Shown here one piece after another: positions 19,332-25,518 of a DNA stretch of 49,364 nucleotides (within the stretch, counting starts at the first letter, position 1; the number at the start of each line of letters is the position of its first letter). The stretch comes from a virus. Where the stretch lies: the IMG/VR virus record IMGVR_UViG_3300030101_001814, positions 1 through 49,364 of that record, one strand, 5' to 3'. A program made the position numbers and the translations under genes. The notes under the pieces were generated by a model. That model searched no databases and was not told the origin of the DNA. It was given only the letters and a program-made list of their open reading frames with translations.

Positions 19332-19507
19332 TATTTATACCCTCCACCGGCTTTTTTATAAGCCGAGGCTAACATCTGTGCCTTTCTCGCACTCCATTGT
19401 CCCGGTCTACCGCCTTTTCCACCAGACTTAATACGACTAAAGAGTCGTTTACGCATGGTAGGTTTGGTATAGTTACCGGCTTTGTTTACTGTTGACTTTG
19501 ATTTCAT
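19331..19507 (-). CDS. 58-residue basic protein, N-terminal part of a DUF5872-like family
   Basis: First gene of the late transcript. MKSKSTVNKAGNYTKPTMRK opens it, then GGKGGRPGQWSARKAQMLAS and a YKKAGGGYK end. The GGKxGxPGQWSARKAQ-AYKKxGGGYK pattern is, from memory, the N-terminal half of DUF5872-type proteins. The C-terminal half is a separate gene at 16374-16622. A six-codon reading frame (ATG to TAA, 19511-19531) precedes it and could be a leader. No good ribosome-binding site for the 58-residue gene itself. Confidence 0.65.
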   Translation of the reverse strand: MKSKSTVNKAGNYTKPTMRKRLFSRIKSGGKGGRPGQWSARKAQMLASAYKKAGGGYK

Positions 19508-19593
19508 TTATTTTGATAGGCTATTCATCGTGATGCCCTAATATGTGTATGTCTGTGAGTGTGGCCTATTGATTTTTACAGCCTATACCTACT

Positions 19594-19621
19594 ATTATAC
19601 CGGCCTACAGAACTTTGTCAA
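19594..19621 (-). promoter_or_regulatory. Late promoter (minus strand) with shared core
   Basis: Minus strand TTGACA at 19616-19621 and TATAAT at 19594-19599, a 16-base spacer. The spacer and downstream edge carry CTGTAGGCCGG and AGTAGGTATA. The same 27 bases (19584-19610) recur at 25384-25410. It points toward the structural genes, starting about 85 bases before the first late gene. A host sigma-70-type promoter with an extra shared motif. Confidence 0.75.
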
Positions 19622-20305
19622 GTCTTTTTTTAATTATTTTTATGATATATGTGTATATTTACAATATGTTACATTTATTTAGTTAATAGATGCAGATTGT
19701 TATTGACAAAATGCTGTGGACTGGTACAATATATAGTGTAGGGGCCGGGGGTCCTATACCTGTAGAATCCATATTTTGTATATTGTAGAAGATATGCTAT
19801 ATGTGGAAGATGTACTTTCAAACCTTATCCTGATTTTTTAGCTTATCCACGTATATATATACACCACGCACCCCCCCTGCCACATGCATACCCCTATGCC
19901 TATTGGCTAAATACATACAGTAATAATATATTACAGATATAATCAATATATATGTTCGTATTCTGTTCACTATATACAGAAATAATAAAATATTACTTTC
20001 ACAATCTGAGAATAAAGCTATAGACCTGTGACAACTATTATCCACACTTTCAAAAACATATACCCCCCCAATCCTGTTTCATATATTGCCTTATGTTCTA
20101 TATACAGAATATCAAACAAAGTTCTTCATATAGAACTGCATATATTGGTCCAGACTGTGCTGACTGTGGAAAATATAATGGTTGTGGATAACTTTACAGA
20201 TTATGCAACAATCGTGTATTAGCTAAGTATATCACCATTTTATGTGCGACACCCTAACGCAGTTAAACCTATTGCATTTGAGAATAGATATACTATTTTT
20301 ATCTC
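19622..20305. other. Non-coding region: candidate replication origin and early leader
   Basis: About 680 bases without a believable gene. It contains DnaA-box-like sites: TTATCCACG (19843-19851), TTATCCACA (20038-20046) and its reverse complement TGTGGATAA (20183-20191), plus TGTGGAAAA (20165-20173). Two C7 tracts (19871-19877 and 20063-20069) sit 20 and 17 bases past the first two boxes. Long A/T stretches and dyads such as GTTCTTCATATAGAAC near 20120 are present. This pattern suggests a host DnaA-assisted replication start. The two open frames here (19818-20045 and 20028-20222) have no ribosome-binding sites and are rejected. Confidence 0.55.
19703..19730 (+). promoter_or_regulatory. Early promoter (plus strand)
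   Basis: TTGACA at 19703-19708, TACAAT at 19725-19730, spacer of 16 bases. The stretch CTGTGGACTGGTACAATA is related to the minus-strand core CTGTAGGCCGGTATAATA at 19.6 kb, so the two form a divergent pair 80 bases apart. The first plus-strand gene starts 575 bases later, giving a long untranslated leader if this is the only start. Confidence 0.65.
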
Positions 20306-22169: not shown

Positions 22170-22211
22170 TCACTATAATATGTTATTATTAAATAATAGA
22201 AAGGACTAACA

Positions 22212-22538
22212 ATGAAACTTAAAGACATATTAAAAATACAATCAATAGTAGAGGGTAGGGCTACACCATACGATATATTAGAGAGTGGCTATACATACTA
22301 TTCAAAGAGTAAAGATGAGTATATAGATTTATTAGATTTACATATTACTCATTTTATAAGAATCTTTTTGAAACAAGTAGAGGAACAGAATAAAATACTA
22401 CATAGATTTAATAAAGAAAGTATAGAAGAAATGCAATATACATTAAATCAAATGTATGAAGATTTGCAAACATTAAAAAAAGATAATGGATTAGATGATT
22501 TATTATCAGAAACAGAAAGGAAAAAAATAAATGGATAG
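22212..22538 (+). CDS. Small early helical protein, unknown
   Basis: A 108-residue, mostly helical protein: [20 protein letters not shown], then [20 protein letters not shown]. It has a strong ribosome-binding site, AGAAAGGACTAACAATG, that recurs before other genes. Overlaps the next gene by 8 bases. No family recognised. Confidence 0.62.
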
Positions 22539-23182: not shown

Positions 23183-23204
23183 AGAAGTATAGAAAGGACT
23201 AACA

Positions 23205-23417
23205 ATGAAATATAATTATTTTTGGGTTGAAGGTTATTGGGATGATGACCCTAGAAAAAACGTTAGTGATTACAGAATTTCTACTGACCCATGGGACGGC
23301 AAGTTTGATTCAGATGATGAACAAATTTTTTATTATCTTGATAAGGATGATAAAATAAACGTGGGTGAAGTTTTAACAGACGGATTTACAATAACAAAAA
23401 TACATGGAAAGGACTAA
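23205..23417 (+). CDS. Small acidic protein, unknown
   Basis: Seventy residues, acidic: NYFWVEGYWDDDPRKNVSDY, then DSDDEQIFYYLDKDDKINVG. A single small domain with aromatic residues. Ribosome-binding site AGAAAGGACTAACAATG, nearly identical to that before 22212. Unknown function. Confidence 0.62.
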   Translation: MKYNYFWVEGYWDDDPRKNVSDYRISTDPWDGKFDSDDEQIFYYLDKDDKINVGEVLTDGFTITKIHGKD

Positions 23418-24143: not shown

Positions 24144-24451
24144 TGGCAACGGCAAATGAACTACAAGAACAATTAAAGAAAGCAAAAAAAGAATTACGAG
24201 AAACAAGAAAAGAAATAGAAGAATTAAAGATTAGAGAAAAATTCTATCAAGAAAGGTTAGATAATTGGGCAGAAAAAAATCAAAAATTAAATCTGAAAAT
24301 ATCAAACATGACGTTTGCTGATGTCACAGAAATGCAAAAAGAAAGAGCAAAATATATAGAAGAATATCAAAAAGATAAAGAAATTACAGAAGCATTTGAG
24401 AAACAGGCTCAAGTAAAGTTAGGTGATTTAGGAACAAACAATAATGAATGA
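24143..24451 (+). CDS. Coiled-coil early protein
   Basis: A 102-residue protein, almost all coiled coil: ELQEQLKKAKKELRETRKEI, then AEKNQKLNLKISNMTFADVT. Overlaps the previous gene by 1 base (TAATG) and the next by 8 bases. Charge pattern fits a protein-bridging or DNA-stabilising helper. Unknown function. Confidence 0.62.
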   Translation: MATANELQEQLKKAKKELRETRKEIEELKIREKFYQERLDNWAEKNQKLNLKISNMTFADVTEMQKERAKYIEEYQKDKEITEAFEKQAQVKLGDLGTNNNE

Positions 24452-24680
24452 TGAAGAACTAATTAAAGTTTTAATTGAATTAGAGAAGAAAGGTTGGGCT
24501 AAAAGAACCGAGTGGGGTGGTTGGGAAATTACCGAGAAGGCAAAAGAAATGATTGAGAAGTATGGAAAGGAGAAAGCAATGGAAATGTTTTCTATAATTG
24601 ATGTCAGCGATGAACAAAAAGATGATGAATTGGAAGTAGAATTTTATCCGGAAGAAACTATTAATAGGACTTTACATTGA
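24444..24680 (+). CDS. Small winged-helix-like protein, unknown
   Basis: Seventy-eight residues: DEELIKVLIELEKKGWAKRT, EWGGWEITEKAKEMIEKYGK. The helix-turn-strand order (LEKKGWAxR...WEITEKAKEMI) resembles a winged-helix DNA-binding domain, so it could be an early transcription regulator. Acidic tail. Followed by a TTG start overlapping its stop (TTGA). Confidence 0.6.
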   Translation: MNDEELIKVLIELEKKGWAKRTEWGGWEITEKAKEMIEKYGKEKAMEMFSIIDVSDEQKDDELEVEFYPEETINRTLH

Positions 24681-24990: not shown

Positions 24991-25064
24991 CACCTAGTGA
25001 CAGATTGGCTATGTGGTGGACTGCAAATCCATTTAAAAAGGTTCGATTCCTTTCTAGGTGTCCA
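24991..25064 (+). tRNA. tRNA-Cys (GCA)
   Basis: Acceptor stem CACCTAG/CTAGGTG (24991-24997 and 25054-25060), a short D arm (ACA/TGT), anticodon stem GTGGA/TCCAT around loop CTGCAAA (anticodon GCA), T arm around TTCGATT, discriminator T and an encoded CCA at 25062-25064. The pattern matches bacterial tRNA-Cys. It is the only tRNA gene seen. It sits at the end of the early small-gene block, next to a terminator. Confidence 0.92.
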
Positions 25065-25065
25065 A

Positions 25066-25103
25066 TAAAACATACATGAGGGGTAGTAGATACCCCCTGT
25101 ATG
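25066..25103 (-). terminator. Terminator of the minus-strand mini-operon
   Basis: On the minus strand CATACAGGGGGTAT pairs with the arm ending in CATGTATG, with a short loop, and is followed by TTTTATT. It ends the reading of the 57- and 20-residue genes from 25.37 kb. On the plus strand it may act weakly after the tRNA. Confidence 0.65.
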
Positions 25104-25118
25104 CTTCTTAAAACCGGA

Positions 25119-25181
25119 TTATCTAGGCTTTCTGCTTACGTTATTCGGTTTTATGTTCCCTGCGAATATAGGTTTTCTCAT
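25119..25181 (-). CDS. 20-residue micro-ORF in the mini-operon
   Basis: MRKPIFAGNIKPNNVSRKPR is the whole product, basic and Pro/Asn-rich. A strong ribosome-binding site (GGAGG, 7 bases before ATG) supports translation. It follows the 57-residue gene and precedes the terminator. Function unknown. Confidence 0.45.
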   Translation of the reverse strand: MRKPIFAGNIKPNNVSRKPR

Positions 25182-25196
25182 AACTATACCTCCATT

Positions 25197-25370
25197 TTAT
25201 GCAATTTTTTTAAGTTTTTCTGCTTTAAGTTGTTCAAAAGCCCACCCCCTGTCATTGGGTTTGTATTCGACTTCAACAAATCGTTTGATATTGTCTTCAT
25301 CAATATTATACTTATCAAACATATTAACAAAAAAGTTGACAGATTTTTCAGTAATACCAAAAACATTCAT
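25197..25370 (-). CDS. 57-residue protein on the opposite strand of the early region
   Basis: Read on the minus strand between two plus-strand early blocks: MNVFGITEKSVNFFVNMFDK, then YNIDEDNIKRFVEVEYKPN, then RGWAFEQLKAEKLKKIA. GGAGG lies 7 bases before the ATG. An upstream promoter (25394-25421) shares 27 bases with the late promoter, so it should be expressed with the late genes or by the same regulator. Helical, with a basic end. No family recognised. A candidate regulator or host-takeover protein. Confidence 0.62.
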   Translation of the reverse strand: MNVFGITEKSVNFFVNMFDKYNIDEDNIKRFVEVEYKPNDRGWAFEQLKAEKLKKIA

Positions 25371-25393
25371 AATTTCACCTCCATATACCTACT

Positions 25394-25421
25394 ATTATAC
25401 CGGCCTACAGGGTTTTTACAA
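25394..25421 (-). promoter_or_regulatory. Minus-strand promoter of the mini-operon
   Basis: TTGTAA at 25416-25421 and TATAAT at 25394-25399, 16-base spacer. The core 25384-25410 is identical to 19584-19610 at the late promoter. Only the -35 differs (TTGTAA against TTGACA). Direct-repeat orientation, 5800 bases apart. Confidence 0.7.
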
Positions 25422-25454
25422 GTGTTATTATGACAAAGGAGGTGTGACAATTTA

Positions 25455-25469
25455 GTAATAATTTATTAC
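25455..25469. promoter_or_regulatory. Perfect 15-base dyad, candidate operator
   Basis: GTAATA and TATTAC flank ATT. It lies between the minus-strand promoter at 25394-25421 and the plus-strand promoter at 25490-25518, where a repressor could control both. The sequence shows only the symmetry; binding is inference. Confidence 0.4.
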
Positions 25470-25489
25470 CAATTAGTTTAAAATAGTTC

Positions 25490-25518
25490 TTGACAGTATA
25501 CAATTATTTTGAGATAAT
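25490..25518 (+). promoter_or_regulatory. Plus-strand promoter before the replication genes
   Basis: TTGACA at 25490-25495 and GATAAT at 25513-25518, 17-base spacer. The next gene starts 22 bases downstream with AGAAAGGA. Confidence 0.6.

Follow-up and report, generated by a model that had tools for sequence, protein, structure and literature searches.

Phage morons, as defined in PMC2147016, are single genes equipped with a promoter and a terminator of their own, and the CII-dependent promoters pI, pE and paQ of phage lambda illustrate how a single phage signal serves several promoters, including an antisense one that lies inside operons of the phage itself (PMC2327240). The HMO-2011-type phages, which include the SAR11-infecting HTVC033P, are among the most abundant in the sea; the paper on this group does not mention promoters (PMC9038755), and in the literature on pelagiphage promoters or antisense late promoters we found nothing directly on point.

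The DNA analyzed here, referred to as the window, is a virus record of 49,364 bases, and its gene content identifies it as an HMO-2011-type phage. Its DNA polymerase is 55% identical to that of Pelagibacter phage HTVC033P and 38 to 42% identical to those of the remaining HMO-2011-type phages, with the top 12 matches all in the group; the helicase, exonuclease, portal, terminase and further structural genes, together with the gene order, likewise point to it. As is typical of the group, early and structural genes lie on opposite strands, with the early genes on the plus strand (about 20.3 to 33.9 kb); the structural and lysis genes occupy the minus strand in two parts, one extending from 19.5 kb back to the window start and the other from the window end back to 33.8 kb. 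With HTVC033P, the window shares the genome plan, the replication genes, the terminase, the portal and the first late gene. In the relative G004, a single side of this late promoter carries both late-gene parts, and the promoter at 19594-19621 is therefore predicted to head the entire late operon. No phage RNA polymerase gene was seen among the genes checked for these phages, in a search run without a positive control. A 22-bp start-site stretch (ATAGAAAGGACTAACAATGAAA) is identical at two early genes (22196-22217 and 23189-23210), and early genes of relatives carry related sequences. The late leader RNA (19480-19583) has complementary ends (TAGGCT...AGCCTA) and a GGCCACACTC block kept across clades and is possibly a structured 5' UTR; in an Rfam search, tRNA alone reached the threshold and this leader had no match.

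Within the early region, the initial annotation had described a self-contained minus-strand unit, here placed at 25066-25437, consisting of a promoter, a 57-codon gene (gp57), a 20-codon open reading frame (ORF) and a hairpin, and every named element was found (Table 1). It had also noted 27 bases common to the antisense and late promoters and a 15-base dyad between the antisense promoter (P-) and the plus-strand promoter of the replication genes (P+). Both are borne out: CTGTAGGCCGGTATAATAGTAGGTATA is exact at 25384-25410 and 19584-19610, on the minus strand at both sites, and the dyad GTAATAATTTATTAC occupies 25455-25469. The 27-bp sequence has exactly two copies, with zero expected by chance, and no exact repeat in the window is longer. 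While the -10 of P- is perfect, its -35 (TTGTAA, 25421-25416) is weak. An upstream element (about TTTGCNANAATAACACTWGTA, 25417-25437) also precedes gp57 in several other clades, a wider conservation than that of the core, and is an additional part of the antisense unit, beyond those listed previously.

Table 1. Predicted features of the antisense unit and of related sites in the window
Feature	Position	Strand	Description
3' hairpin	25067..25107	-	-20.9 kcal/mol, z -5.1 versus shuffles; U-run short
20-codon ORF MRKPIFAGNIKPNNVSRKPR	25119..25181	-	RBS GGAGGTATAGTTATG
gp57	25197..25370	-	57 codons, MNVFGITEKSVNFFVNMFDKYNIDEDNIKRFVEVEYKPNDRGWAFEQLKAEKLKKIA, RBS GGAGGTGAAATTATG; predicted three-helix protein, no recognised family
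27-bp promoter core	25384..25410	-	Half of spacer, -10 TATAAT 25399-25394, discriminator, start region; exact two-copy repeat
Upstream element TTTGTCATAATAACACTTGTA	25417..25437	-	Overlaps weak -35 TTGTAA; one good copy in window
Dyad GTAATAATTTATTAC	25455..25469		Between divergent P- and P+
Divergent early promoter P+	25490..25518	+	TTGACA-17-GATAAT, extended -10; from consensus scan; predicted to drive replication gene block; kept in four relatives
Late operon promoter	19584..19621	-	Core 19584-19610, -35 TTGACA 19621-19616; perfect TTGACA-16-TATAAT; heads structural genes
Dyad, second copy	19920..19934		Main control region
Dyad, third copy, one mismatch	19982..19996		62 bp from second copy
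Convergent early gene, probable small winged-helix regulator	24444..24680	+	From profile matches and structure model
Recombination-type exonuclease	31999-32901		Gene of window

The principal new finding concerns co-variation: from genome to genome, the 27-bp core of the predicted antisense promoter changes in step with the core of the late promoter. The sample is small, comprising the four genomes that carry the core and hold both sites (the window, G004, G025 and L114/G035). Within the same genome, antisense and late cores differ at 0, 1, 2 and 2 of 27 positions, and in mismatched pairings between genomes at 1 to 7. The true pairing has the smallest sum over 27 bp among the 24 possible (5; the next is 7) and is tied for smallest over the 11-bp spacer part. 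G004 retains the same site pair with T changed to A at one position in both cores, and in G025 the spacer sequence ATCCTT replaces GGCCGG in both promoters; the matched stretch has an identical 3' boundary in these two genomes and the window. In L114/G035, the antisense core (GTAAGCCTG...) was read first, a second copy was predicted, and it was then found at the late promoter, 5.9 kb from the antisense core and with the late leader directly after it. G004 and G025 are sisters in most of their genes and in their flanks: identity is about 94% both in the late leader and directly upstream of P-, and the structural proteins are mostly 93 to 100% identical. Even so, 7 and 4 bp separate their cores, and those of G004 match the more distant window instead. 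The two promoters have thus changed together against the background of their own genomes.

In its autonomy the gp57 unit resembles a moron: it has a predicted promoter and terminator of its own, lies between phage operons on the opposite strand and is absent from the named relatives. It differs from one in that its promoter core and dyad are common to the main control region of the phage and change together with it. Like the lambda CII set, it involves separate promoters with a shared recognition sequence, here the 27-bp core that co-varies in four genomes; here, however, the partner is a late structural promoter, a protein is encoded, a hairpin stands before the convergent genes and no CII-like protein was identified. 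Antisense silencing of the paQ type, in which the transcript reaches a regulator gene and reduces its expression, is not what we find, as the predicted hairpin precedes the convergent genes and the tRNA. The unit is therefore somewhat moron-like in its autonomy and somewhat lambda-CII-like in having one signal for separate promoters, by analogy and with no claim to membership of either class.

Relatives of gp57 were found in 33 viral contigs of IMG/VR (successive searches yielded 11, 24 and 33). The intact copies have 53 to 58 codons, nearly all with the RBS GGAGGTGAAATT and nearly all followed by the same 3' hairpin; 17 residues are invariant in an alignment of 17 sequences, and in the loci read, gp57 is convergent with early genes. 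The initial annotation had made its reading depend on conservation of the 57-residue frame in relatives, and the frame proved to be conserved in more than 30 contigs. Judged by comparison among relatives, the 57-codon gene is real, with a codon-level signal that is modest (dN/dS versus the window copy of 0.37 to 0.95, third positions not the most variable). The plus-strand ORFs 25101-25433 and 25153-25455 were rejected as genes and are taken as shadows of gp57; the three plus-strand frames are all stopped in some relatives at least. Both genes of the unit are indeed shorter than 60 codons, but the expectation that standard annotation would miss both was too strong: gene callers of the Prodigal type take genes as short as about 30 codons, so that one of 57 codons would not necessarily escape them. 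In a 60-codon listing, gp57 would be masked by a competing 60-codon ORF in a different frame (25184-25366).

Searches with gp57 gave no significant, consistent match in Pfam, PHROGs or PDB, nor by fold, and no match in isolate phage records or among 84,980 bacterial and archaeal genomes. HTVC033P and HMO-2011 differ from the window in that tblastn detected no gp57 homologue in either. While isolates thus lack a match, more than 30 contigs have gp57 at the same place, and the phages bearing it are uncultured phages of the ocean, probably with SAR11 as host. The structure model of gp57 has three helices at moderate confidence (pLDDT 72), and the protein is near neutral (pI 6.2). A remote relative (MMNLTDSAKNHFLNFFSILFKN...EYGNDWQWAYTEYL) occurs in another marine phage type (L088, 6221-6409, minus strand; also L091-L109), with an hhalign probability of 95 in a direct pairwise comparison; in that phage type, the left arm of the hairpin lies about 250 bp away.

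The 20-codon ORF recurs in G025/G026 only, where 18 of 20 residues are identical and four of the six base changes are silent; it is absent from G004, L024 and other gp57 relatives, and the hits in L064 and L065 were dismissed as fortuitous, the surrounding sequence being unrelated. Translation of the ORF is probable in its two lineages, but it is not a core part of the antisense unit. The sequence of the 3' hairpin is almost unchanged in relatives of all main clades; it is probably a terminator and possibly works in both directions. A tRNA-Cys gene (24991-25064) adjoins the hairpin, and L024 and L114 have its sequence at the equivalent place. A single copy of the left arm of the hairpin (TTTTAAGANGCATACAGGGGGTA) is present in each of the unrelated marine phages L071, L073, L074, L077, L078, L082 and L087, where it follows a gene for a lysozyme or for a holin-like protein; the arm is found in no GTDB genome. 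Since the arm (TTTTAAGNNGCATACAGGGGG) is common to unrelated phages, it was suspected to be a T7-like phage promoter, an idea rejected because each genome has a single copy and a search run without a positive control turned up no gene for an RNA polymerase; a host attachment site was likewise rejected, with no match in the genome contigs searched.

The dyad pattern GTAATA-NNN-TATTAC has three sites in the window versus 0.375 expected, and both sites other than that at 25455 fall in the main non-coding control region. All three dyads recur in G025 with the 62-bp spacing kept, plus one more one-mismatch site. In the five relatives with the late-type core, the dyad stands 99 to 100 nt upstream of gp57, whereas it is absent in 12 relatives without the core. 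Because its arms are constant while its centre varies, the dyad at 25455-25469 is probably an operator; measured from the predicted starts, its centre falls at about -63 relative to P+ and about -75 relative to P-. Since the late core and the dyad of the main control region recur at the junction 25384-25518 in unchanged order, this junction would amount to a second, compact region for early/late control. In the L007 clade, the divergent plus promoter on the upstream side of gp57 has a different palindrome (TATGTTNNAACATA) over its -10, which suggests that operator types differ between clades. The 660-bp non-coding region at 19640-20300 contains, besides the two extra dyads, four DnaA-box-like words (TTATCCAC/GTGGATAA/GTGGAAAA at 19843, 20038, 20166 and 20184) and is a possible replication origin.

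The product of the convergent early gene at 24444-24680 is a probable small winged-helix regulator. Its relative in L007 matches a PHROG transcriptional regulator (E 2.4e-4), its own weak profile matches include many winged-helix proteins, and its model has a helix-strand-strand-helix arrangement with weak MarR-like matches. As a reader of the core it is unlikely, being 97% identical in G004 and G025, two phages with differing cores; we infer that it could read the invariant dyad instead.

In the scenario that we favor, with a probability of about 0.6, one factor reads both cores and co-regulates gp57 and the late genes. An autonomous antisense cassette, with gp57 and, in two lineages, the 20-codon ORF, would sit in the divergent junction before the replication genes. 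A common trans-acting factor would read the core, by repressor release or activation, and turn on the antisense and late promoters together, such that gp57 would be made when the structural and lysis operon is made. The dyad would be the site of a second factor acting on early promoters, with the winged-helix neighbour as its candidate. Late in infection, gp57 and divergent transcription from P- would most likely help to damp early and replication transcription, or else act on the host; which of these tasks, early functions or the host, gp57 itself would serve is offered only tentatively.

Several findings count against such co-regulation. The -35 elements of the two promoters differ, so their timing could differ too, and the coupling is seen in four genomes only. 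In G007, G014 and L116 the antisense promoter has no resemblance to the late one, and gp57 stands under promoters unlike the late promoter in more distant relatives; hence the late coupling is a trait of the lineage of the window and not of gp57 in general. Because near-identical gp57 proteins sit under different promoters (L024 versus L112), gp57 does not depend on late control. A 77-bp repeat upstream of gp57 in G007 adjoins a run of N and was set aside as a probable assembly artefact. The earlier proposal of an early/late switch or a host-takeover module under late control is therefore retained in part: the tie to the late promoter stands, as the pair is conserved and co-varying and the only further sites of the dyad are in the main control region, while a role as switch or takeover module is at most putative, since gp57 has no recognisable function and distant relatives keep it under promoters that are not late-like.

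It is possible, if somewhat doubtful, that gp57 is instead an independent accessory gene of the moron type (for example, for superinfection exclusion or counter-defence) that moves as a unit with its promoter and terminator, that its late-like promoter in this lineage is incidental and that it has no role in a switch. The self-contained unit on the opposite strand, the isolates without a match (HTVC033P among them), the several promoter types in front of gp57, and the occurrence of a remote relative and of the hairpin left arm in other phage types are all consistent with this. Nevertheless, such an accessory gene leaves the joint change of the cores and the co-occurrence of dyad and core unexplained, and as the kind of location that gp57 occupies in these phages never changes, mobility is not obvious.

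Gene conversion or repeated copying, rather than a shared factor, could also keep the cores alike, as they are two direct repeats in one molecule of a phage that has a recombination-type exonuclease and, in G004, mosaic blocks. We consider this unlikely: recombination would have little to work on in 27 bp, the stretch that matches stops at GGTATA in every case while the flanks stay different, and direct repeats would risk the loss of 5.8 kb of early genes. With gene conversion as its rival, a shared binding factor would be the best account of the joint core change.

The factor that reads the core might be gp57 itself, an autoregulated late regulator whose specificity shifts with the core. In gp57, as in few other genes, G004 resembles the window (79%) more than its sister G025 (67%), a pattern also seen in both cores, and the three-helix model of gp57 is in keeping with such a function. 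However, the core adjoins gp57, so that one recombination tract explains the antisense side; the near-identical proteins of L024 and L112 have different promoters; and a near-neutral protein with no DNA-binding family match is not suggestive of a reader. We thus regard this role as quite unlikely, and it is a distinctly improbable extension of it that gp57 founds a family of very small phage promoter-specificity factors, autoregulating and controlling the late operon, with its own gp57/core specificity class per lineage. That the unit matters for an antisense or regulatory RNA and not for a protein is very improbable, for all its antisense position, the strongly conserved DNA around promoter and hairpin and the weak third-position signal, since the hairpin would end the transcript before any early gene and intact relatives retain the 53- to 58-codon frame with its RBS and the 17 invariant residues.

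Sequence co-variation alone thus points to a two-promoter late regulon, to an early operator common to two control regions and to a conserved small protein linked with them. For the HMO-2011-type phages, these results give concrete sites at which the timing of early versus late genes may be set.
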